A DNA stretch of 64,000 bases from Acidobacteriota bacterium (GTDB lineage: Bacteria; Acidobacteriota; Blastocatellia; Chloracidobacteriales; Chloracidobacteriaceae). Where the stretch lies: positions 62,001-126,000 of the forward strand of contig JACQXX010000056.1 of the NCBI GenBank assembly GCA_016208495.1, written 5' to 3'. Each line of letters begins with the position of its first letter. Position 1 is the first letter of the stretch. Under the pieces are notes generated by a model. The model was not told where the DNA came from. It searched no databases and saw only the letters and a program-made list of their open reading frames with translations. Shown one piece after another: positions 16,190 through 57,343 of this stretch. The position numbers were made by a program, and so were the translations under genes.

Positions 16190-16518
16190 AGCGTGAATAG
16201 CGAAATAGTCAAATCCAGAGCATTTTTCTATTGTCACCCTGCCCCCATAAGCGCCAGGATAAGAAAACCTGTGTCCTTTCCGTTGGTATTGAATGATGCT
16301 CTTGTTAGGCTTGGGTCGCGTCCTGGTCGTGACCGTGGGCTTCGCACCACGGCTATTACACGACAACCCTCCGGGCCTGAAACCTTGTCCCCCCTGTCCC
16401 CCTGTTCTCTGTGATTGTGGCGCCCAATTTGCGGACTTCTCACCAGCGGCTGTTTGTTGAATTTTAGAAATTAAACAAATGGCTTTATTTTCAATTTGTT
16501 AAGGCAGGTGAGAAAAAT
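16190..16518. other. Spacer with a solitary element end
   Basis: No gene is visible. At 16247-16264 the sequence ATAAGCGCCAGGATAAG equals the terminal repeat of the mobile element found at 33.0 and 53.9 kb, but no second end or matching interior follows. Runs of CCCCCTGTCCCCC and ATAGCGAAATAG type simple sequence surround it. An A+T-rich 60 bp precedes the pilin gene. Confidence 0.5.
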
Positions 16519-24667: not shown

Positions 24668-24745
24668 GGCGGTTGTAGCTCAGTTGGTTAGAGCGCCTGG
24701 TTGTGGCCCAGGAGGTCGTGGGTTCGAGACCCATCAATCGCCCCA
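24668..24745 (+). tRNA. tRNA-His (anticodon GTG)
   Basis: Complete cloverleaf. Acceptor GCGGTTG (24669-24675) pairs with CAATCGC (24735-24741). D-arm AGCTC...GAGC, anticodon stem CCTGG/CCAGG with GTG at 24703-24705, T-arm GTGGG-TTCGAGA-CCCAT. The His-specific extra G(-1) at 24668 faces C73 at 24742, and the CCA end is encoded. Confidence 0.98.
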
Positions 24746-24883: not shown

Positions 24884-25702
24884 ATGATGGATTCTTCTGC
24901 ATTTGCCCAACCCGAGGGGTTTGACAGTTCTTCACTACCGGTTCTTCACCTTCAAGAAATCAGTAAACAATTTGGTACCCAGCCGGTGCTGAGAAACATC
25001 AGTTTTTCAGTTCAGCGTGGCGAAATTTTTGGCTATATCGGTGCCAATGGGGCTGGAAAAACCACAACCATCAAAATCCTGACCGGTTTAATCAAGCCAA
25101 GCCAGGGAAATGCCTTCGTTTGCGGCCACAGTATTCTGACTGACTCCTTACACGTCAAAGCACGCGTTGGATATCTTCCTGAATCCGGTGCCTTATTTGA
25201 AAAGCTCTCTGCCCGTGAATATCTCACCTTAACGGGTCAACTTCATAAATTACCCGCCCATCAGCTTCCGGATTGTGTTCAGGAATGGCTCAAATTCTTT
25301 GGACTTTCAGACAAGGCTGACCAGCAAATGGGGACATTCTCAAAAGGCATGAAGCAGAAAGTCTGCTGGATTGCCGCCTTGATGCACAACCCAGATGTCT
25401 TGATTCTGGACGAGCCGTTAAACGGGTTGGATGTCGAAACCGTGGCGCGGGCGAAAGATCTGATGAAGTATCTGGTGGCGAGTGGAAAAACCATTTTTTA
25501 CTCATCACACATGATTGATATCGTCGAAAAAGTATGCACCCGCATCGCCGTGCTCAATGCTGGTCGGTTAATTGGCATTGGCACGATTCCGGAAATTGTA
25601 GCCTTATCTGGAGAGCCCACCCTTGAGCAAGCTCTTTTAAAACTGTGGCAAGGTCAGCCATTGCACCACCCCTCCGAATCGAATGATAAAATGACAAGGT
25701 GA
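24884..25702 (+). CDS. ABC transporter ATP-binding protein
   Basis: 272-residue ATPase subunit of an ABC-2 type exporter. Walker A GANGAGKTT, Q-loop region, signature FSKGMKQKV, Walker B DVLILDEPLNGLD, and the switch His in YSSHMIDIVE are all present. The signature has Phe-Ser-Lys-Gly-Met rather than LSGGQ, as in CcmA/NatA-like drug or lipid exporters. The ATG at 24884 is followed by a 20-residue non-conserved leader. The partner membrane protein is the next gene, 539 bp downstream, which is an unusually wide gap for this pair and is filled by repeat arrays and an inverted-repeat element. Confidence 0.92.
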   Translation: MMDSSAFAQPEGFDSSSLPVLHLQEISKQFGTQPVLRNISFSVQRGEIFGYIGANGAGKTTTIKILTGLIKPSQGNAFVCGHSILTDSLHVKARVGYLPESGALFEKLSAREYLTLTGQLHKLPAHQLPDCVQEWLKFFGLSDKADQQMGTFSKGMKQKVCWIAALMHNPDVLILDEPLNGLDVETVARAKDLMKYLVASGKTIFYSSHMIDIVEKVCTRIAVLNAGRLIGIGTIPEIVALSGEPTLEQALLKLWQGQPLHHPSESNDKMTR

Positions 25703-25824
25703 CAAGGGGACAGGGTGACAAGGGAACAAGGGGACAGGGTGACAAGGGAACAAGGGGACAAGGGGGACAAGGTGACAAGGTGACAAGGTGATCATATGTC
25801 AAAATCGCAGTTTGCCACCTTGTC
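25692..25824. repeat. Octamer array GTGACAAG
   Basis: About 13 degenerate 8-bp units (GGTGACAA, GGGGACAG, GGGAACAA). Near 25810 the orientation flips (GCCACCTTGTCAC). Similar units in reverse complement lie beyond the permease gene at 27935-28040. Confidence 0.85.
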
Positions 25825-26194
25825 ACTCAGTACAAGTCCTCATAAATAGGGGATGGAATTTCGGTGATTCCGAATTGGCTTTCGCCCGAATAGCCGGTGG
25901 TTTGCCGCTTTGGGCACACCACCGGAGCTTCAATCCACAGTGGTTCGCGTCCGGATGGGCGCTGGAAGCTGGTTCGGGTCCCGGTTTTCGTGGAATTTCC
26001 GGCTTCTGACTCACGACTCCTGTTCCAGCGCCCATCCGGGCGCGAATCCGTGATGGCGGCTCTGTCCGGTGGCCGCGTGTCCAAAGCGACACTTGCCACC
26101 AGCTATTGTCCAGCGCCCATCCGGGCGAAAACCAATGTTTCTGCCAGCGAGTAGTCGAATTTCATCCCCCCTTTTATGGGGACTTGTACTCAGT
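25825..26194. mobile_element. MITE-like 370-bp element with about 40-bp terminal inverted repeats
   Basis: The left end ACTCAGTACAAGTCC, then ATAAATAGGGGATGGAATT, matches the reverse complement of the right end (ACTGAGTACAAGTCC, ATAAAAGGGGGGATGAAATT) with few mismatches. The inside holds a second inverted pair (CGTCCGGATGGGCGCTGGAA near 25949; its complement CCAGCGCCCATCCGG near 26026 and 26111). No transposase or long reading frame is present. It interrupts the octamer spacer inside the ABC transporter operon. Confidence 0.6.
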
Positions 26195-26241
26195 CATACA
26201 GTCACCTTGTCACTTCATCATCTTGTCACCCTCACTTCATT

Positions 26242-27885
26242 ATGCTTCCAGCCCATTGTTTTCTCACTCCTGCTGCTGCCGTTGTCGAAGGTCAGCTTGA
26301 TCTGACACAGCTTCGAGTTATCGTCACCATGAATTTGAAGCAGGCGCTCAGACCTGGCAAAGATCCAGTGACGGGCAGCGTCGGAAATCCCATTCGCCAA
26401 ATTTTGCTTTCAATGGGGGCATTCGGGGTGTTGTTTTCCCTCAATATTGACCGGTTTGCCGATCTGCCCAGCTATCTCATCATGCTGTTTGCCTCGACCT
26501 TCCTGATTGCGAGCCTCAACATTGCCCCCGACCCATATGACGTTCGCCAACGCAATCTGGAGACCTTTCATTCAAAAGCAATTACCCAGAAAACACTCCT
26601 CACCGCGCGAATCGCTGTGTTGTTCATTATCGTGAACTTCATTGCGGTCAGTTACTCGTTGATTCCGTTGATTGTCTCAGTGTTTTACCTTGACTGCCCG
26701 GTGGTGCTGGCCGTCTGTACTTTGATTTTATTGCTGATTGGGTGTTTTTCACTGGTGGTGTACTGGCTGGTGGTCTTGATGGTGGCGGCCCAATTTATTG
26801 GGATTGATCGGGTTCGCCAGATGTCGCAGGGGCTTTTTCTGCTGGTGTTAATCGGCATCATTGGCATTTCATTTGATTTTTTTGGGGTCAACCGCCATCC
26901 CTTTTCCCAGGAAGTTGAAAAATTATCGCTGACTGATTCAGTGTGGGTGAAGTTTTTGCCGTCAACCTGGTTTGTTGATTCTTTGGTTGGCGACCTGTCA
27001 CTGGTGGCTAACACCGAACGACTGGTGATGCTGGTAACGGTGTGTGGTGCCATTGGGATTATCTGGCGAATTGATACCGAAGGGTATTTTCCGCGCTTGA
27101 TTGAAAAGCTCTCAGAGCCGGCCTCTCAGCCCACGTCCAGTCCCCTGTCGGTAAAATTATTGAGCCTGTACCGACTGATTCCACCCGTGCGCCGATGGGT
27201 GATTCCCGATCATACCTTTGCGCTGGCGTCACTGGTCTTGACGGTTACCCAGCGCGAAGAGATTTCACGCATTCGGACCCTGGTCCCGCGGGTGTTTATG
27301 ATCCTGTTTTTTTTGGCTGGATTTAGCTCGTTTCGCCCAGAAGCCCATTTTTTCGGGTTACTCATGCTGAGCTACTATGGATTTTCGGGAGTAATCGAAG
27401 GGCTGGATATCATCAAGCAAAGTTCTCACGCTTCAGCTTGCTGGATGTTGCAGGTCATTCCACTTAGGGGAAAAGACATTCTCAAAGGTTTGCGCCTGAC
27501 AGTGATGGTGAAATTTTTTGCATTTCCAGCCGTCCTGTTGCTGGTCATGTTTTACAGCTTTCACCCTTTTCTCATCGCAACATTGCTGGCCATTGGTTTT
27601 TTCATTATTGCCAGGGTTTTAATCCCCGTGTTGCTGATTGCACAGCCTACTTATCCGCTCTCTCAAGACCAGCGGACAACCCAGTCGCTCATTGGATTCT
27701 TGATCGGAATGGTGGTGATTTTCTTCGCGGCGATGGGGTATGGCGTGATTACCCTGCTGGGATCGCTTTTGGGCTACTTTGGGCTGGCGGTGGCTGCTGG
27801 CGGGCTGGTTGGCCTGGTTGGCCTGGAGTATGTGCTCGATTTGCAGGCAGCCCGTCGGTTGCAGGCCGTTGGTGTGAAGGATTAG
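26242..27885 (+). CDS. ABC-2 type exporter permease subunit
   Basis: 547-residue integral membrane protein with about 12 hydrophobic segments, in three clusters. It pairs by position with the ATPase gene upstream. The N-terminal motif LDLTQLRVIVTMNLKQALRP resembles the pre-helix region of ABC-2 permeases with large split halves. A short loop with KLLSLYRLIPPVRRWVIPDH separates the two halves. Substrate is unknown. The start is uncertain: ATG 26242 keeps the conserved N-terminal segment, ATG 26329 would cut it, and the frame stays open further upstream into the repeat element. Confidence 0.75.
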   Translation: MLPAHCFLTPAAAVVEGQLDLTQLRVIVTMNLKQALRPGKDPVTGSVGNPIRQILLSMGAFGVLFSLNIDRFADLPSYLIMLFASTFLIASLNIAPDPYDVRQRNLETFHSKAITQKTLLTARIAVLFIIVNFIAVSYSLIPLIVSVFYLDCPVVLAVCTLILLLIGCFSLVVYWLVVLMVAAQFIGIDRVRQMSQGLFLLVLIGIIGISFDFFGVNRHPFSQEVEKLSLTDSVWVKFLPSTWFVDSLVGDLSLVANTERLVMLVTVCGAIGIIWRIDTEGYFPRLIEKLSEPASQPTSSPLSVKLLSLYRLIPPVRRWVIPDHTFALASLVLTVTQREEISRIRTLVPRVFMILFFLAGFSSFRPEAHFFGLLMLSYYGFSGVIEGLDIIKQSSHASACWMLQVIPLRGKDILKGLRLTVMVKFFAFPAVLLLVMFYSFHPFLIATLLAIGFFIIARVLIPVLLIAQPTYPLSQDQRTTQSLIGFLIGMVVIFFAAMGYGVITLLGSLLGYFGLAVAAGGLVGLVGLEYVLDLQAARRLQAVGVKD

Positions 27886-27893
27886 GGTTCAGG

Positions 27894-28040
27894 GGTCTTG
27901 AAGGGATGAGGGATGAGGGATGAGGGATGAAAAAAATCACCTTGTCACCCTATCACTTTGTCACCCTGTCACCTTGTCACTTTGTCATCTTGTCATTTTG
28001 TTACCTTGTCACCCTGTCACTTTGTCACCCTGTCATTTTG
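27894..28040. repeat. GGGATGA heptamers and TCACCTTG octamers
   Basis: 27901-27930 is a run of GGGATGA units; 27940-28038 is about 12 degenerate octamers (TCACCCTG, TCACTTTG, TCATCTTG). The spacer lies between the convergent permease and thrB genes. Confidence 0.85.
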
Positions 28041-28046
28041 ACCTGG

Positions 28047-28967
28047 TCAAACCCACTCTAGTTTTCTTCCGATCAAATCCACATCTAAAAAATAAGCGGT
28101 TGATTCGTGTCCGTAGCGAGCAAAGCACGCCTGCATCCGCGAGGCAATTTCTTCTTGATGTGAAAGAGCCAAAGCCAGGGCTGATGGTCCCGCACCACTC
28201 AAGGCAGTTGCAAGCAATCCGGGGTGTGAAAGCCCCAGAATGTCTTCCAGCCCTGGAATGTGACGGGCGCGAAATCCTTGATGTAACCGGTCCTGCATCG
28301 CTTCGCCCAGCAAGTCAAACCGTTTGTCTTCCAGGGCAGTCAATAAAAGTCCGATGCGTTGCATCTGGAATACCACGTCGGCTCGCGAAAGGGAATCAGG
28401 CAACACGGCCCTCATCGTCTGTGTAGACAGTGGAAAATGCGGTCTGACCACGATGCAGGAAATTTCGGGGGGCCAGGCCCGTCGCAGCAGGTATGGCGCC
28501 CCAGCTTCACGTTCACACAACAGGACCAATCCCCCCAGCCGGGCTGGTGCCAGGTTATCTGCATGGGACTCAAAGACCATCGCGTGTAACAAAAACTCGT
28601 CAAGCGTCAATTCACGGCCCAGAAAACTCTCAACCAGTGATACCCCAGCGACAATAGCGGCGGCACTGCTTCCCAGGCCGCTCCCCAGCGGGACATCGTT
28701 GATCATTTCAAGCGTGAGGGCCGGAAGTGAAATCCCCATCGTTGCCGCTGTGTGGTGAGCCACCTGACAGATTAAATTTTCTTCAGGTCGGAGCGGAATG
28801 TGGGTCGCCGCGCTTCCAGTTGCCGTCAGTTTCCAGTCACCAGCCTCCGCATGCCATGTGCCGCGAAGCGTTAAATACAGGCCCAGGGCCAGTCCAAGGG
28901 TATCAAATGCAGGTCCAAGGTTGGCGGTCGAAGCCGGAACACGAATTGAAAAAGTGGAATAAGCCAT
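28047..28967 (-). CDS. thrB: Homoserine kinase ThrB
   Basis: 306-residue cytosolic GHMP kinase that makes O-phosphohomoserine for threonine synthesis. The N-terminal motif VRVP-like VPASTANLGPAFDTLGLAL and the ATP loop DVPLGSGLGSSAAAIV (about residues 90-105) are the GHMP signatures. The third motif SGAGPSALAL is at the C-terminal side. The length is normal for ThrB. No other threonine genes are adjacent, so it stands alone between two repeat-rich spacers. The ATG at 28967 fits the family N-terminus but has no good ribosome site. Confidence 0.93.
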   Translation of the reverse strand: MAYSTFSIRVPASTANLGPAFDTLGLALGLYLTLRGTWHAEAGDWKLTATGSAATHIPLRPEENLICQVAHHTAATMGISLPALTLEMINDVPLGSGLGSSAAAIVAGVSLVESFLGRELTLDEFLLHAMVFESHADNLAPARLGGLVLLCEREAGAPYLLRRAWPPEISCIVVRPHFPLSTQTMRAVLPDSLSRADVVFQMQRIGLLLTALEDKRFDLLGEAMQDRLHQGFRARHIPGLEDILGLSHPGLLATALSGAGPSALALALSHQEEIASRMQACFARYGHESTAYFLDVDLIGRKLEWV

Positions 28968-28975
28968 GACGAGGG

Positions 28976-29218
28976 AAGAATGAAGAATTGAGAATGAAAA
29001 ATGAAGAAAGTGGTTAGTGGTTAGTGGTTAATTTAGTGGTTAGTGGTTAATTTAGTGGTTAGTGGTTAGTGGTTGGTTTAGTGGTTGGTTCTTGGTTCTT
29101 GGTTCTTGGTTTTTGGTTCTTCTTCGAAAGCATTGATTTCTAACCACTAACCACCAACCACTAACCACCAACCACTAACCACTAACCACTAACCACTCAT
29201 TGGTTTCTTCATTCTGTT
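28976..29218. repeat. Heptamer hairpin: GAATGAA, TTAGTGG, TTGGTTC arrays
   Basis: Left arm: GAATGAA units then TTAGTGG units. Middle: TTGGTTC units leading to a core CTTCGAAAGCATTGATTTC. Right arm: CCACTAA units and TTCTTCATTC. The arms are reverse complements. Confidence 0.9.
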
Positions 29219-29220
29219 TT

Positions 29221-30570
29221 TTAGCTGGTGAGCCGGTTGGTTGTTTCCTGCAACTGGTTGCGGAGTCGGTTTTCATCAAAGGTCAGGACATTCTGGCCGT
29301 CAAACAAAACTTTTCCGCGCACCATCGTCATAATGACATCACGACCACTGGCCGAGGCCAGTAAGGCAACTGCCGGATCGTGAACTGGTTGGGTATGCGC
29401 TCCAGAGAGTGAAATGGCCGTGATATCAGCGTCTTTTCCGACATCGAGGGTCCCAATGCGGTTCTCCAGACCGAGGGCCGTGGCCCCACCGAGGGTCATC
29501 CATTCCAGCAGGTCCGAAGCCGGCAAGACGGAGTCATCACCCATTGAAGCCCGGTGGAGCAGTCCTGTAAAGCGTGCTTCATCAAGCAAATCACATACAT
29601 TGTTGCTGGCCACACTGTCAGTTCCGAGCCCAACCGGGATTCCCCGGCGGCGCATGCGCAGGGCTGGGGCAATTCCATGACCAAATTTGGCGTTTGATTT
29701 TGGGCAATGGGCAACGCGGGCGTCCCAGAGTGAAAGCAACCCGATATCTTCTTCTGTGGCGCGAACACAATGCACCAGGAGTGGTTTTACTCGCAGCACA
29801 TTCAAATCAGCCAGATAGCGGATGGTCGAAACGCCAGGCGGTGACCATTGGATATCCCGGCGGCGGTATGAGTCGCCGATGGGACCAAGCCCTTGCCGCA
29901 TAAAGTCTTCCTCGGCCTGGGACTCGGCGGCATGGATACACATGGGAAGTTTGTCTTGTTCGGCAAATTCAGTCGTCAGTTGAAACAACAATTTTGAAAC
30001 CGTATATGGCGCATGCGGTGAAATCCCAACTTTAACCAGCGATGTTTCATGGCGGCGTAAGGTCTGGATTCTCCGTTTTAAGTCGCTCAAGCTGCGTTTG
30101 GCTTTGAGCATTTCGAGGCCAAAGACTTCTTGATACACAATTCCACGGACACCGCCAGTGACCATGGCATCCATGGCTGAGCCTGAATCACCCGTATCCG
30201 CCAGTGTCGTAATGCCCGCCCGAATGGCTTCGATCACGCCCCACCGGGCTGCAATTTGGAAATCCGAGGCCCGCAACCGTTCACGTTTGAGTTCAACCAG
30301 CTTTGTAATCCAGGGGTAAAACGGCAATTCATCGAGGAGCCCCCGCAAAGCGGTTAATTCCAAATGGGAGTGAACGTTCACAAAGCCCGGTGTGAGCGCA
30401 GTTTCACCTAAATTGACAGTTTGATAAGGACCATCTTTGGCAACACTTTCACGAACGGTTTCTTCCGGTCCAACCGCGGTAATGAGTCCATTGTGAACGG
30501 CAACCGCGCCGTGTGGAATCGGCGGGATCGAAACCGGAAGTACCCATCGAGCAGAATATACAATTGTCAT
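29221..30570 (-). CDS. Cytosolic amidohydrolase, TrzA/SAH-deaminase-like
   Basis: 449-residue metal-dependent hydrolase of the amidohydrolase superfamily (chlorohydrolase/cytosine deaminase-like, COG0402). Metal site: NVHSHLEL (HxH), ISPHAPYTVS (His), VHCVRATEED (His) and GTDSVASNN (Asp). It has no signal peptide, so it acts in the cytosol. Members deaminate S-adenosylhomocysteine, methylthioadenosine, guanine or triazines; the specificity cannot be set here. The ATG at 30570 gives the usual N-terminus MTIVYSARWVLPV; the frame continues upstream to 30618 without conservation. A paralogue with a signal peptide lies at 37643-39082. Confidence 0.88.
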   Translation of the reverse strand: MTIVYSARWVLPVSIPPIPHGAVAVHNGLITAVGPEETVRESVAKDGPYQTVNLGETALTPGFVNVHSHLELTALRGLLDELPFYPWITKLVELKRERLRASDFQIAARWGVIEAIRAGITTLADTGDSGSAMDAMVTGGVRGIVYQEVFGLEMLKAKRSLSDLKRRIQTLRRHETSLVKVGISPHAPYTVSKLLFQLTTEFAEQDKLPMCIHAAESQAEEDFMRQGLGPIGDSYRRRDIQWSPPGVSTIRYLADLNVLRVKPLLVHCVRATEEDIGLLSLWDARVAHCPKSNAKFGHGIAPALRMRRRGIPVGLGTDSVASNNVCDLLDEARFTGLLHRASMGDDSVLPASDLLEWMTLGGATALGLENRIGTLDVGKDADITAISLSGAHTQPVHDPAVALLASASGRDVIMTMVRGKVLFDGQNVLTFDENRLRNQLQETTNRLTS

Positions 30571-32850: not shown

Positions 32851-33031
32851 AAACCTGAGTACTGAGTACCGTGAGCCGTAATGACGCCGAAGATAGCGGG
32901 CTGAAGACGTTGGGCTGAGAAAACCAGGGCTCAGGGCTTGGGGCTGAAGAAATTGGTTTTATTTCATCCCTCATCCTTCTTCCCTTCCTTTGCTCCGAGC
33001 CTGCGAGTCTTCAACCCCCAGCCCTGAGCCC

Positions 33032-33223
33032 ATATGCGCCAGGAGAAGGAAGTTTGAGCCTGTGTGAGACAAGAAGATGGGGAGACACGGAGACAATTCA
33101 CCAGGGTTGTCAGGTTGAATCAGTTCCGATTGAGAGCGGGGGAAGGCGACCAGTTGTTTTTTCTCCCTGTCTCCCGGTCTCCTTGTCCAGATCGGGCTCT
33201 GTTTCCTTCTCCTGGCGCTTACG
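33032..33223. mobile_element. MITE-like element, copy A
   Basis: 192-bp element whose ends GCGCCAGGAGAAGGAA (33036-33051) and TTCCTTCTCCTGGCGC (33203-33218) are exact inverted repeats. It is flanked by a 12-bp direct repeat AGCCCTGAGCCC (33020-33031 and 33224-33235). The inside matches, in reverse orientation, the element at 53850-54047, with a near-identical central 75 bp. It has no reading frame of its own. Similar 'ccctgagccc' text elsewhere in this 512-bp spacer means the duplication could be chance in this copy. Confidence 0.8.
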
Positions 33224-33362
33224 AGCCCTGAGCCCGAGGATTTTTCAGCCCGAAAAATCCGACGAGGTGGAGGCTTGCAAAGAGGGCGTCTTTGTCCGGC
33301 GGCCAACGTGCTATGCTCCAAAAAAATAAATCAATAACCTGCAGTTCTGAGAGAAAAACTAT

Positions 33363-34217: not shown

Positions 34218-34352
34218 GAAGAACCGCTGTAGTGGTTAGTGGCTAGTGGTTAGTTGTTGGTTCTTGGAAGGTATTGATTTCTAACCACTAACCACTAACC
34301 ACTAACCACTAACCACTAATCACTAACCACTAACCACATTCTCAATTCTTCA
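34218..34352. repeat. Heptamer hairpin: TTAGTGG and CCACTAA arrays
   Basis: TTAGTGG units, then a shortened core TTGGTTCTTGG-AAGGTATTGATTTC, then a long CCACTAA array and TTCTTCATTC. It fills the spacer between the convergent HAD and thioesterase genes. Confidence 0.88.
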
Positions 34353-34754
34353 TTCTTTCCTCCGGATCGGGGTTGGTCGGCCATCATCGCCGACCGCAAC
34401 ATAAATCACATCGGCTTCAGTGACTTTGACGATTTTGCCCGGTTCGCGCCAGCGTTCAGATTCAACCACGACGTGGACGGTCACTGATGTCCGACCGACC
34501 CGCGAAACTTCAGCGTAAAAGCTTACCAGATCACCAACATAGACCGGCTCCACAAAAATCACTTCCTTCATGGCCACAGTTACATATTGATGAGACGCCA
34601 GTTCGCGTGCCGGAACCGCCCCGGCCAGGTCAATGTAGCTCAAAATGACGCCGCCAAAGATGGTTCCAAAGGCATTGGTCTGGTGAGGCATCATCATGGT
34701 TCGAATGGCGGGTGCTTTTCGTGGAGGGAGGGCGGAAGATGGTGTTTCGTTCAT
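34350..34754 (-). CDS. Acyl-CoA thioesterase (hotdog fold)
   Basis: 134-residue cytosolic hotdog thioesterase of the YciA/BACH group. MMMPHQTNAFGTIFGGVILSYIDLAGA is the family's N-terminal motif: Asn and the FGG loop mark the substrate and CoA site, and Asp sits in IDLAG. The strands VTVAMKEVIFVEPVYVGDLV and TSVTVHVVVESE follow. The acyl chain preference is unknown. It is transcribed away from the CNBD-DUF4388 gene across a 264-bp spacer with little structure. Confidence 0.9.
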   Translation of the reverse strand: MNETPSSALPPRKAPAIRTMMMPHQTNAFGTIFGGVILSYIDLAGAVPARELASHQYVTVAMKEVIFVEPVYVGDLVSFYAEVSRVGRTSVTVHVVVESERWREPGKIVKVTEADVIYVAVGDDGRPTPIRRKE

Positions 34755-43964: not shown

Positions 43965-44831
43965 TCACTCAATTGATTGGAATAATGAGCAGCCTGATAA
44001 ATAAGCGACCAACGCCTCTTTCCAGTCCCGCAATGGTTTAAACCCCAGTTGAGTGCTGGTTGAGCAGCCAAGGGCGGAATTCATCGGGCGTGGTGCCGGG
44101 CGGTTTAACTCAGCTTCTGTAACAGGAAGTATTTCAGCCTGGACATCAGCGCCCACGACTTCGGCGCCAAACAAGGCCAGTTCATACCAGCTACAAGGCG
44201 TACCGCTGTTGGTTACGTGAAAAAGCCCGGTGTGATGGCCTTCGATCAACTCACGAAGGCGGGCAGCCACATCAACGGCATATCCGGTCAGGATGCGGTT
44301 ATCCGCCACTGACCGGAGTGTTCCGGGCTTGCGCAGAAGTGTTCCAAGCTGACTGGCAAAGTTACGACCTCCTTTGCCATACAACCCCGCGACCCGCACA
44401 ATACAGGCCGATGGAAGTTCCTGCTGAACCAGAACTTCGCCCTCAAGCTTTGATTGACCATAAACCGAAATCGGGTTTGGTTTGTCTTCCGGTTCATACA
44501 AACCATCTTTGCTCCCATCAAACACATAATCAGTGCTGATATGAACCAGTTGGGCTGAGTGCTGGCGGCAAGCCACAGCCAGCAATTGCGGAGCAATGGC
44601 ATTAGATTGAAATGCACGTTCCCGCTCAGATTCGCAGGCATCAACCGCCGTCATGGCGGCACAATTCACCACAATGTCAGGATGAATCCGATCAAAAACC
44701 TGTGCGATAGAATCAGCCTTTGTTATGTCCAGATCACTGTGCCGACATCCTGTAACTCTATGAGAAGGTTTGAGTTCAGTCGCAAGATGCTGTCCTAGTA
44801 GCCCACCGGCACCGGTAATGAGAATGTTCAT
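43965..44831 (-). CDS. rfbD: dTDP-4-dehydrorhamnose reductase-like protein (RmlD)
   Basis: 288-residue extended SDR. ITGAGGLLGQHLA is the dinucleotide loop; SDLDIT, VVNCAAMTAVDACE, ISTDYVFDGSKDGLYEPEDKPNP and YGQSKLEGE (catalytic Tyr and Lys) match RmlD. It reduces the last intermediate of dTDP-L-rhamnose synthesis; other RmlB/A/C genes are absent nearby, so a related deoxysugar role, or the MAT2B-like subgroup, is possible. It is convergent with DUF427 and is followed upstream by a heptamer spacer. Confidence 0.85.
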   Translation of the reverse strand: MNILITGAGGLLGQHLATELKPSHRVTGCRHSDLDITKADSIAQVFDRIHPDIVVNCAAMTAVDACESERERAFQSNAIAPQLLAVACRQHSAQLVHISTDYVFDGSKDGLYEPEDKPNPISVYGQSKLEGEVLVQQELPSACIVRVAGLYGKGGRNFASQLGTLLRKPGTLRSVADNRILTGYAVDVAARLRELIEGHHTGLFHVTNSGTPCSWYELALFGAEVVGADVQAEILPVTEAELNRPAPRPMNSALGCSTSTQLGFKPLRDWKEALVAYLSGCSLFQSIE

Positions 44832-44980
44832 AAGAATGAAGAAACCATCTAGTGGCTAGTAATTAGTGGTTAGTGATTAGTGATTAGTGGTTAGAAATCA
44901 ATACTTTCGAAGAAGAACCAAGAACCAGGAACTAACCACTAACCACTAACCACTTTCTCAATTCTTCATTCTTCATTCAT
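44832..44980. repeat. Heptamer hairpin with AAATCAATACTTTCGAAG core
   Basis: GAATGAA and TTAGTGG-like units, core TTAGAAATCAATACTTTCGAAGAAGAACC, then CCACTAA units and TTCTTCATTC. The same core occurs at 57.26 kb, and reversed at 29.1 kb and 34.27 kb. Confidence 0.88.
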
Positions 44981-45514
44981 CTGAATGGTGTCCAGTGCTT
45001 CTGACATTGCTTCAAGTTTTGCCTGACGGGCAAGTTGCCGGAGTCGAGGGAGGATCAACTCAAATGAAAAGCCACGCCGGACAAGTACATTGGTGAGTCG
45101 GTTGATTTCTTGAGGGGATGTTGGGAGTCCGTTAGAGCGGATAAATTTTTCCAGGAGCTGTTCCATGACATCTGATTCAGGGATTTCAGCATATACCTCG
45201 TTCACGGCTTCGCGCACCGTTTCTGACTTCACTTTCTGCTGGGTCAATTCCTGAGTGAGTCGGCGTTTGCCAACCAGGCGGCGTGCCACTTGCCCGTGGG
45301 CAAATTGTTCGGCAAAGCGTTGATCATCGAGATAGCCATATTCCTTCAGCCGATCAATGACTTCTGTCACTATCTCTTCTCGCTCCTGGTCCTCAATATT
45401 CAATTTTTTCAGCTTGCGGTTTAGATGCTGGGTGGTATCGGTAATGCTCCGGGGACGAAGGGCGAGATATTTGATGCCTGCAGTCAGCATTGTTTGGAAG
45501 AGACGGTCATCCAT
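44966..45514 (-). CDS. recX: Regulatory protein RecX
   Basis: 182-residue modulator of RecA filaments. Three-helix tandem repeats are recognisable: LALRPRSITDTTQHLNRKL, VTEVIDRLKEYGYLDDQRFAEQF and ARRLVGKRRLTQELTQQKV, with the family's Y-L/I-D/N-D-x-x-F-A signature. The last repeat (INRLTNVLVRRGFSFELILPRL) closes it. recA is not next to it, which is common in this phylum. The ATG at 45514 is preceded by a repeat arm, and the C-terminus runs into the neighbouring repeat. Confidence 0.88.
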   Translation of the reverse strand: MDDRLFQTMLTAGIKYLALRPRSITDTTQHLNRKLKKLNIEDQEREEIVTEVIDRLKEYGYLDDQRFAEQFAHGQVARRLVGKRRLTQELTQQKVKSETVREAVNEVYAEIPESDVMEQLLEKFIRSNGLPTSPQEINRLTNVLVRRGFSFELILPRLRQLARQAKLEAMSEALDTIQMNEE

Positions 45515-45515
45515 G

Positions 45516-45834
45516 GTGAAGAATGAAAAATGAAGAATGAAGCCAGTGGTTAGTGGTTAGTGGTTAGAAATCAATAATGCCAGTTAAGGGTTGAAGTGGT
45601 TGTTGGTCCTCATTCCCGTTGGGATGGAGCCAGGTTAGCCGGTGGTCAGCGTCGCTTTGGGCGCGCCACCACCAGAAACGGTGGGGGCTGACCCGAATTC
45701 CCAGGCTCGACGACTCGCCCTGGGCTACGAGCCGGCGCCCACTTCGTGGGCTGAGAACCAAAACGGCTTCAACCCTTAACTGGCATTATTGATTTCTAAC
45801 CACTAACCACTGGCTTCATTCTCAATTCTTCATT
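45516..45834. mobile_element. Giant inverted-repeat element (about 65-bp arms)
   Basis: Left arm 45516-45596: GAATGAA units, TTAGTGG units, AAATCAATAATGCC, AGTTAAGGGTTGAAG. Right arm 45768-45834 is the same in reverse complement, differing mainly by one TTAGTGG copy; 36 bp are identical. The 170-bp middle matches 10023-10115 in its right half. No reading frame with support is present. Whether it moves is unproven; it may be a nested insertion of one repeat into another. Confidence 0.7.
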
Positions 45835-53451: not shown

Positions 53452-53849
53452 ATTGTTTTCCTCCGATGTGAAATAAAAACCATCAAAATAAGTGTGTGTG
53501 TTTATTAGCCAGTGGTCTTACCTAGTGCAAACCTGATGCACAAATCTCAAAAAACTGATGAAATCCGGAAAAAAATTTATGGGTATTGAGTCGTATACTG
53601 GCTAAATGGCTGATTTCTCAGTGGATTACAGAAAAAAGAAAAAGTTAGTGAATACTTACATTCCGGATGACACAGGCAACCCTACTGACCAAACAGCCCT
53701 ACTGAGGTCGGATCCACGCCGTGTTTCGTGTAGTGACTTTCGCCTCAATACACGATATGGGATAGCACCTGTCTGCATTTCATACACAGACAGGTGCGGC
53801 TCAAATTGTGATGATGGGAGTTGGAAGAAAAGCCCGCCGAGGAGGGGGA

Positions 53850-54047
53850 TAAGCGCCAGGATAAGGGAACAATGTCCGATCTGGACAAGGGGACCGGGAA
53901 ACAGGGAGGCCGGGAGAACAAACAACTGGTCGCCTTCGCCCGCTCTCAATCGGAACTGATTCAACCTGACAAACCTGGTGAATTGTCTCCGTGTCTCCCC
54001 AGCTCTGTGTCTCAAACGGCTCAGATTTCCTTATCCTGGCGCTTATA
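53850..54047. mobile_element. MITE-like element, copy B
   Basis: 198-bp element with ends TAAGCGCCAGGATAAGG and CCTTATCCTGGCGCTTA, exact over about 17 bp, flanked by a 12-bp direct repeat CGAGGAGGGGGA (53838-53849 and 54048-54059). It is the reverse-orientation relative of 33032-33223. It lies in the 626-bp spacer upstream of the sigma factor and otherwise holds no gene. Confidence 0.85.
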
Positions 54048-54077
54048 CGAGGAGGGGGAGAGTGGAATCAGAGTCGT

Positions 54078-55124
54078 TTATTTACCCGGCTGTAAGCGCG
54101 AACCGTTGAGTTCCTTTACCTGGACGCCAGCTTGATCGGCAAAATATGAAAAGCGGCCTGTCAGTGGGTAGTTGATTGGCTCGGCATAGATTGCAAATGA
54201 GGTCCGGTCGGCTGAAAGCACAACTTCATAGCGATAGCCGAAAATTTGCATGGCGTTCAGGTTTTCCTGCAGGATCCCCTCTTTAATTAATTCAGGGATA
54301 GACGCACAAAAGCCGTTGTTTGAGCGGGCGTAGACCATTTCAACGTTTGCCAGAGTGGAGATCAGATTATAGATGCTGCCTTCGTTTGCCTGCATTTGCT
54401 GGAAAGCACCGTCCCGCTCGTAAAAGAAGTACTGGTCTTTGAAAGTGTTGACCAGCGCCTGTGTTTCAGCATCGCCAATTTTCCATTGACCATCCACCAG
54501 AATCAGATTGACAGGCAGCACATTGGAAGATTCCGTGACTGGTTGACTTTCAGCTTTAATAATTCCGGTTTTGGACTTAGAGTCGTTGGAAGTTTGCGTG
54601 ACCGTCGGTTTGATCTGAGCATTTTTGGTACGTTCTTCCAACAAATCCTGTCCGGGTTGAACAACCTTGCCAGATGACTCGGTTTTCAACACGCCCATCG
54701 GATTATCTTTATCATTCACAACTGTCACTATTTCTTTCGAACTGTTTTGTGGCTGATCTGTTGTTAAGTACACGGTGGCAAAAGAGCCGGTGATTTGCTC
54801 TCCCTTGAGGGTAACGTTTTCTGGAATTGCTTCTGCCATTGCCAGAAAGTCGGTTTCAAGAAATTTGAACTGGGCAGGTGAGAGTGATTCAACCGCTGGG
54901 GAATAGACGCTGTATTGAAAGGCTTCGACATATTTTTTCTGTCTCAGCAAATCATAAAATCGGCGCACGGTTTCTTTTGGTGAAAGAGGTTTTGGGGTTT
55001 GGGCAGAAACGGATCCAGGCTGTAAGAGCGGGGATACACAGAGACCGCAGATCAAAATCACAACCATACATCTGGTACGGAGAAGTAAAACCCGCCTTGA
55101 TACAACCTGATGGTTTACGTTCAT
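54078..55124 (-). CDS. Exported protein of unknown function with pseudopilin-like C-terminal part
   Basis: 348 residues with a signal peptide (about residues 16-41, ending GSVSA). The N-terminal part (TPKPLSPKETVRRFYDLLRQKKYVEAFQY split by the usual SP) looks like an NTF2/DUF4878-type fold: two helices then strands. A low-complexity Ser/Thr/Gln stretch (about 150-205) follows. The C-terminal part (QANEGSIYNLISTLANVEMVYA, FCASIPELIKEGIL, FGYRYEVVLSADRTSFAIYAEP) resembles the head of small pseudopilin-like proteins. I do not recognise a function. AGAGG precedes the ATG. Confidence 0.65.
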   Translation of the reverse strand: MNVNHQVVSRRVLLLRTRCMVVILICGLCVSPLLQPGSVSAQTPKPLSPKETVRRFYDLLRQKKYVEAFQYSVYSPAVESLSPAQFKFLETDFLAMAEAIPENVTLKGEQITGSFATVYLTTDQPQNSSKEIVTVVNDKDNPMGVLKTESSGKVVQPGQDLLEERTKNAQIKPTVTQTSNDSKSKTGIIKAESQPVTESSNVLPVNLILVDGQWKIGDAETQALVNTFKDQYFFYERDGAFQQMQANEGSIYNLISTLANVEMVYARSNNGFCASIPELIKEGILQENLNAMQIFGYRYEVVLSADRTSFAIYAEPINYPLTGRFSYFADQAGVQVKELNGSRLQPGK

Positions 55125-56565: not shown

Positions 56566-57162
56566 ATGTCTGAAGAACTTGAGCAAATAGAAAATGAAAC
56601 CCACCCAATCGTCTCACAAGTGGTTAGTCATCACCTGCGTGCCGCTCTGAAGTCGCTCCATCTCACTGCCGTGGCGGATGAACATCTGGCCCGAACCCCC
56701 GAGAACGTGGCGGAATTCTGGATGGAGTTTTTGGCTCCGTATCTTTCGCACGCCGCACCGCCAGTTGTGGCGACGTTTCCAGCCCAGGAAATGGCTGGAC
56801 AATGCGTCCTGATCAAGGATTTAGCCTATCACTCGATGTGCGCCCATCACCTGACCCCATTTTTTGGCGAAGCCCATATTGCCTATGTCCCTCATGAACT
56901 GGGGATTGGGATTGGGTCACCAGCCAAGTTGCTTGAGTTCTATGCTCGTCGGCCTCAACTACAAGAGCGCCTCGCTGTTCAACTGGCTGATGGATTGGTC
57001 GCTGCCTGCCGCCCCCGTGGTGTGATGGTGTACCTGACAGCGCGTCAGATGTGTATGGAAATGCGCGGTGCCAAAACTAAAGGCGTGGTTGAGTGTTTTG
57101 TGGCCCGAGGATGCTTTGAAGAAGATTTCTGGCGGCAGATGTTTTTTACCCGACTCCGATGA
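56566..57162 (+). CDS. folE: GTP cyclohydrolase I FolE
   Basis: 198-residue enzyme that opens the pterin pathway, making dihydroneopterin triphosphate from GTP. Zinc ligands appear in HSMCAHHLTPFFGEAHIAYVP (Cys, His) and in ARQMCMEMRGAKTKG (Cys). GIGSPAKLLEFYARRPQLQERL and the C-terminal MRGAKT motif are the family's T-fold signatures. AGGGAG precedes ATG 56566; the frame from 56524 is longer but without conservation. The product feeds folate and possibly other pterins. Confidence 0.94.
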   Translation: MSEELEQIENETHPIVSQVVSHHLRAALKSLHLTAVADEHLARTPENVAEFWMEFLAPYLSHAAPPVVATFPAQEMAGQCVLIKDLAYHSMCAHHLTPFFGEAHIAYVPHELGIGIGSPAKLLEFYARRPQLQERLAVQLADGLVAACRPRGVMVYLTARQMCMEMRGAKTKGVVECFVARGCFEEDFWRQMFFTRLR

Positions 57163-57343
57163 ATGAAGAATGAAGAATGAAGAAAGTGGTTAGTGGTTAG
57201 TGGTTAGTGGTTAATTTAGTGGTTAGTGGTTAGTGGTTAGTGGTTAGTACCTGGTGCTTAGCTTAGAAATCAATACTTTCGAAGAAGAACAAGGAACCAA
57301 GCACTAACCATTAACCACTTTCTTCATTCTTCTTTCATCCAGC
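57163..57343. repeat. Heptamer hairpin between folE and the response regulator
   Basis: GAATGAA units, about nine TTAGTGG units, core TTAGAAATCAATACTTTCGAAGAAG, AACC/CACTAACC units, TTCTTCATTC. Same core as at 44.9 kb. Confidence 0.9.

Follow-up and report, generated by a model that had tools for sequence, protein, structure and literature searches.

A high-copy family of geneless mobile elements with 18-bp terminal inverted repeats and 11-bp target-site duplications in an Acidobacteriota genome

Bacterial non-autonomous, non-coding DNA transposons (MITEs) are in general short and geneless, carry terminal inverted repeats (TIRs) within a target-site duplication (TSD) of constant length, reach high copy numbers at intergenic sites and share their ends with a larger element. 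MIC231 cassettes are non-autonomous derivatives of the insertion sequence IS231 that are moved in trans. Transposases of the IS4 family are DDE enzymes with a YREK motif. The IS231 subgroup of the IS4 family has ends of the form CAT-------AA--TAA--- and produces duplications of 10-12 bp, and in the published survey it was almost confined to the Firmicutes (PMC2266710); the present host belongs to another phylum. The ends of a further IS4 subgroup, ISH8, also begin with CAT and have T at position 15, and its listed duplications are 10 bp long with no apparent target specificity (PMC2266710). In this study, we report a MITE family from an Acidobacteriota draft genome that has all of the general features named above and the CAT ends and position-15 T of ISH8, and that differs from ISH8 in its duplications and target preference, and from bacterial MITEs in general in that the matches to its TIR with MITE interiors were limited to this genome and to one other contig, which looks like a relative's. 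The papers searched gave no prior description of such a MITE family in this lineage; the family is real and apparently undescribed, while its kind, the high-copy bacterial MITE, is ordinary and well known.

The starting point was copy B in the window, by which we mean the whole analysed stretch of 64,000 nucleotides. The features of copy B and of related copies, with the tandem-repeat arrays of the window, are as follows.

53838-53848, no strand: left TSD copy of copy B, 11 bp, CGAGGAGGGGG, placed from the sequence and the family-wide TSD length
53849-54047, plus strand: copy B, type II MITE of 199 bp, geneless, canonical first base C lost
53849-53865, plus strand: left TIR of copy B, (C)ATAAGCGCCAGGATAAG, first C missing
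54030-54047, minus strand: right TIR of copy B, CTTATCCTGGCGCTTATA, last base A in place of G
54048-54058, no strand: right TSD copy of copy B, 11 bp, placed from the sequence and the family-wide length
33031-33223, minus strand: copy A, a type II MITE that shares the sub-subfamily of copy B
16246-16385, plus strand: type I copy with a single TIR (16246-16263), right TIR missing, right end approximate
25688-28064, 28955-29229, 34240-34357, 44830-45834 and 57148-57339: tandem-repeat arrays

The tandem-repeat arrays are intergenic, have 7- and 8-bp units (AACCACT, TCACCTTG with variants, and GAATGAA) and run in both orientations. Rfam searches also placed a 6S RNA (RF00013, 61.4 bits) at 2149-2336 and a tRNA (RF00005) at 24669-24742, both on the plus strand.

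The window has five occurrences of the core of the family TIR, where 0.31 would be expected. Copy B had been described in the first-pass annotation as a short mobile element inverted relative to copy A, and the inversion was confirmed by a match in reverse orientation over arms of 127 nt (89%) and 59 nt (88%). The sequence then proposed as its target-site duplication, CGAGGAGGGGGA, is indeed present exactly on both sides (53838-53849 and 54048-54059), but the true length is 11 bp and not 12; the twelfth base (A) of the left flank is the second base of copy B itself, because the first C of the left TIR has been lost. Copy B had also been considered better evidence of a duplication than copy A. 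The surroundings of copy A are repetitive, as had been supposed, but copy A too is bounded by a perfect 11-bp duplication, AGCCCTGAGCC, at 33020-33030 and 33224-33234.

The source genome (G000) is a draft of 8.38 Mb in 177 contigs. Searched with copy B, it yielded 56 matching pieces; searched with the 18-bp family TIR, CATAAGCGCCAGGATAAG, at two mismatches or fewer, it yielded 161 and 140 sites on the two strands (about 301 ends), compared with 0 for the reversed-pattern control, which bears out the description as a mobile element. The genome holds well over a hundred copies of this geneless MITE of about 200 bases. The copies are dispersed, 135-250 bp long, with 18-bp TIRs, no gene and a constant 11-bp TSD, and 86 of them were extracted with both ends. 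They are biased to intergenic sites, 18% lying within open reading frames of at least 150 aa, compared with 87% for randomly placed sites. As a guide to age, each copy's identity to its nearest neighbour in sequence was examined, and it was uncorrelated with the intactness of the TSD.

None of 146 related genomes had more than two matches to the TIR, and those few appeared chance-like. Across 84,980 species genomes (257 billion bases) the TIR was found in 11 stretches, where by our own arithmetic chance alone would give an 18-mer about 7.5, and a single one of the 11 was accompanied by MITE sequence. This stretch, L096 (JACQYI010000074.1), is a contig of 3.9 kb that had been assigned to a cyanobacterial MAG. 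Its tetranucleotide usage scored 0.51-0.54 to long pieces of G000 (0.36 to one 5-kb piece) versus 0.08-0.31 to its own bin, and from this composition and its MITE and insertion sequence content it probably stems from a relative of the window's organism and is a contaminant of the bin. Neither the TIR nor the left end of the larger element described below was found in viral contigs. Another MITE-like family was also observed that is unrelated to that of copy B; its members are about 115 bp long and have the ends TAAGTACCTT...AAGGTACTTA. It gave 42 matches of 90-100% identity in G000, one of them L014 (G000:C103:18225-18349), and occurs in L096 at about 316-426. It is sometimes nested in the family of copy B, and looks young since two of its copies are identical over 115 bp.

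Many MITE copies, including the flank of copy A, sit in short G+C-rich tandem repeats (GGGCTGA and similar), and on this account the flanking repeats might be read as chance matches inside such arrays and not as duplications made on insertion. The left and right flanks of the 86 two-ended copies were compared at lengths of 6 to 15, with mismatched flanks of the same set as control. Flank identity at 11 bp was 0.69, whereas the control reached only 0.35 (sd 0.019), a separation of about 18 control SDs; the other lengths remained near the control with a slight rise at 10 and 12 and no comparable peak. At least 10 of the 11 bases were equal in 44% of the copies against 1.3% in the control, and several perfect duplications, such as ACTTCACAGGA and CCTCGGTAACC, lie in non-repetitive sequence. 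The chance reading is refuted by this comparison and keeps virtually no probability, and the peak at 11 bp alone gives the length of the TSD. When the targets are reconstructed, the duplicated 11 bp are G/C-rich at their ends and are often preceded by A and followed by T, a preference not fully separable from repeat abundance because so many copies are in tandem repeats. No empty site was shown; L096 provided none, because its genes have no close match in G000. Three pairs of one-ended copies, the two members of each breaking off at the same point but differing in their flanks, were considered as candidates for one-ended transposition; they share exactly 143 bp (L108/L114), 144 bp (L170/L175) and 141 bp (L044/L049), and since these lengths are about that of the contig-tip overlap (137-143 bp), the pairs were treated as probable assembly joins.

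The interiors are of two types. Type I is about 157 bp long (n=40 copies) with a mean inner identity of 0.82; type II, which includes copies A and B, is 135-250 bp long (n=44) with a mean of 0.70. TIRs are among the most conserved parts in both (0.91-0.95), and in type I an inner palindromic block is conserved to the same degree (0.96). The inner 75 bp or so of copies A and B are nearly identical, with about 2 differing positions in the alignments, as had been noticed at first sight and tentatively attributed to selection on the middle through a fold or binding site. The element could on that reading be, or also be, a functional RNA, a terminator or a protein-binding site; a long hairpin is formed by the type II consensus, and the end of copy B is separated by 31 bp from the stop codon of a minus-strand open reading frame (54078-55124). 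Over the 44 aligned type II copies, however, conservation is highest in the TIRs, with a pairwise identity of 0.91-0.92, and in two subterminal blocks (0.90 and 0.86), and the centre is the least conserved part (0.58-0.80) and is missing in many copies. The central 75 nt fold no better than shuffles (z of -0.05 and -0.15), and the excess fold stability of copy B disappears once its TIRs are removed; copy A keeps some, which comes from its longer arms. The consensus structure had a covariation term of -0.25, with double-sided changes in 2 of 23 consensus pairs, so that no covariation-supported fold was obtained, and Rfam gave no match at the copy B locus. Selection on the middle is not supported, and a functional role of this kind is very improbable. 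The closest sampled relatives of copy B, at 83-88%, are L002, L003, L005 (copy A), L004, L006, L008, L007 and L009, which have its centre in common; the inner similarity recurs in about eight further sampled copies and is absent from the rest of the family. The likeness of A and B in the middle is that of a common sub-subfamily. With 44 copies in view instead of two, a near-identical middle in two transposon copies is a sign of their subfamily and not of selection.

A larger element also has the family TIR at its ends. Contig L096 stops about 140 bp into an element which starts with the TIR and has an interior unlike the MITEs, and two contigs of G000, C105 and C166, carry this left end at their tips with 100% identity across 137-140 bp. 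A right end, with the TIR in opposite orientation, is present at the very tip of C84 and of C104, and in C98 at a distance of 34 bases from the tip; the three copies are 99-100% identical, and indicate at least three copies of the larger element. In short-read assemblies, multi-copy insertion sequences make contigs break off within near-identical repeats. From the shared TIR, the left and right ends would belong to one element. The right end carries a 42-codon frame that is open from the contig tip and terminates at a stop codon a short distance before the TIR. C105 and C98 are flanked by the same duplication (GGGCTGAGGGC), but this is a word common in the genome. The larger element and the MITEs have only about 18-22 bp in common, so the MITEs are not simple internal deletions of it. 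With the same TIR at both ends and a reading frame at the right, the larger element is the likely source of the transposase that moves the MITEs.

The end peptides of the larger element matched no Pfam or NCBIfam model, the C-terminal peptide was found in its own genome alone among 396 genomes of the phylum, and a search for relatives on plasmids gave nothing usable. A 22-bp match in Calothrix had no transposase annotated nearby and was taken as chance. The genome contains only two PF01609 genes, IS982-like and ISAs1-like by our reading, and neither has the family TIR; no IS4-type gene with the family TIR was found in the genome.

The explanation that best accounts for these observations is that copy B is a mobile, non-autonomous MITE served in trans by the larger insertion sequence. 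A DDE transposase supplied by this element would recognise the TIRs of the MITEs and excise them in a cut-and-paste manner, and insertion would follow at an 11-bp target that has G/C-rich ends, is cut in a staggered manner and is duplicated in the process; the two types of MITE interior, unrelated to the insertion sequence, would matter little for mobility. We place the probability of this explanation as a whole at roughly 0.85.

Comparison of the ends with ten published groups points to the IS231 subgroup. The family ends, CAT-------A---TAA, agree with those of IS231 at 7/8 positions, sharing CAT, A at position 11 and TAA at positions 15-17; position 12 differs, being G here and A in IS231. 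The 11-bp duplication is within the 10-12 bp of IS231, about one helix turn, and a target preference is common to both. The MITEs here are geneless, unlike IS231 and MIC231. Judged from its ends and TSD, the family may work like an IS4/IS231-type MITE, by which a likeness and not membership is meant, and these features make it somewhat probable that the transposase is of the IS4 family, in or near the IS231 subgroup.

A different, unseen transposase, of another DDE family with a TSD near 11 bp, might instead move the MITEs, the resemblance to IS231 ends being coincidental. The middle of the larger element lies in no overlapping contig of the draft, so no transposase was read, and with ten groups compared a match at 7/8 positions becomes less striking. 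Yet an identical 18-bp TIR is carried by a multi-copy larger element of the same genome, and the ISAs1-like and IS982-like genes that are present lack that TIR; we consider a different transposase rather unlikely.

Taken with the larger insertion sequence as the probable source of mobility, the results describe a MITE family of high copy number that has a clean TSD of 11 bp and is linked to a larger element of the same genome through ends identical to its own. It is also conceivable, as a more speculative proposal, that one undescribed IS4-like transposase multiplied two interiors of unrelated sequence, both bounded by the same 18-bp ends, to more than 100 copies, with a preference for landing in the genome's own G+C-rich tandem-repeat arrays. 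If this is true, whatever DNA lies between two such ends can be mobilised.
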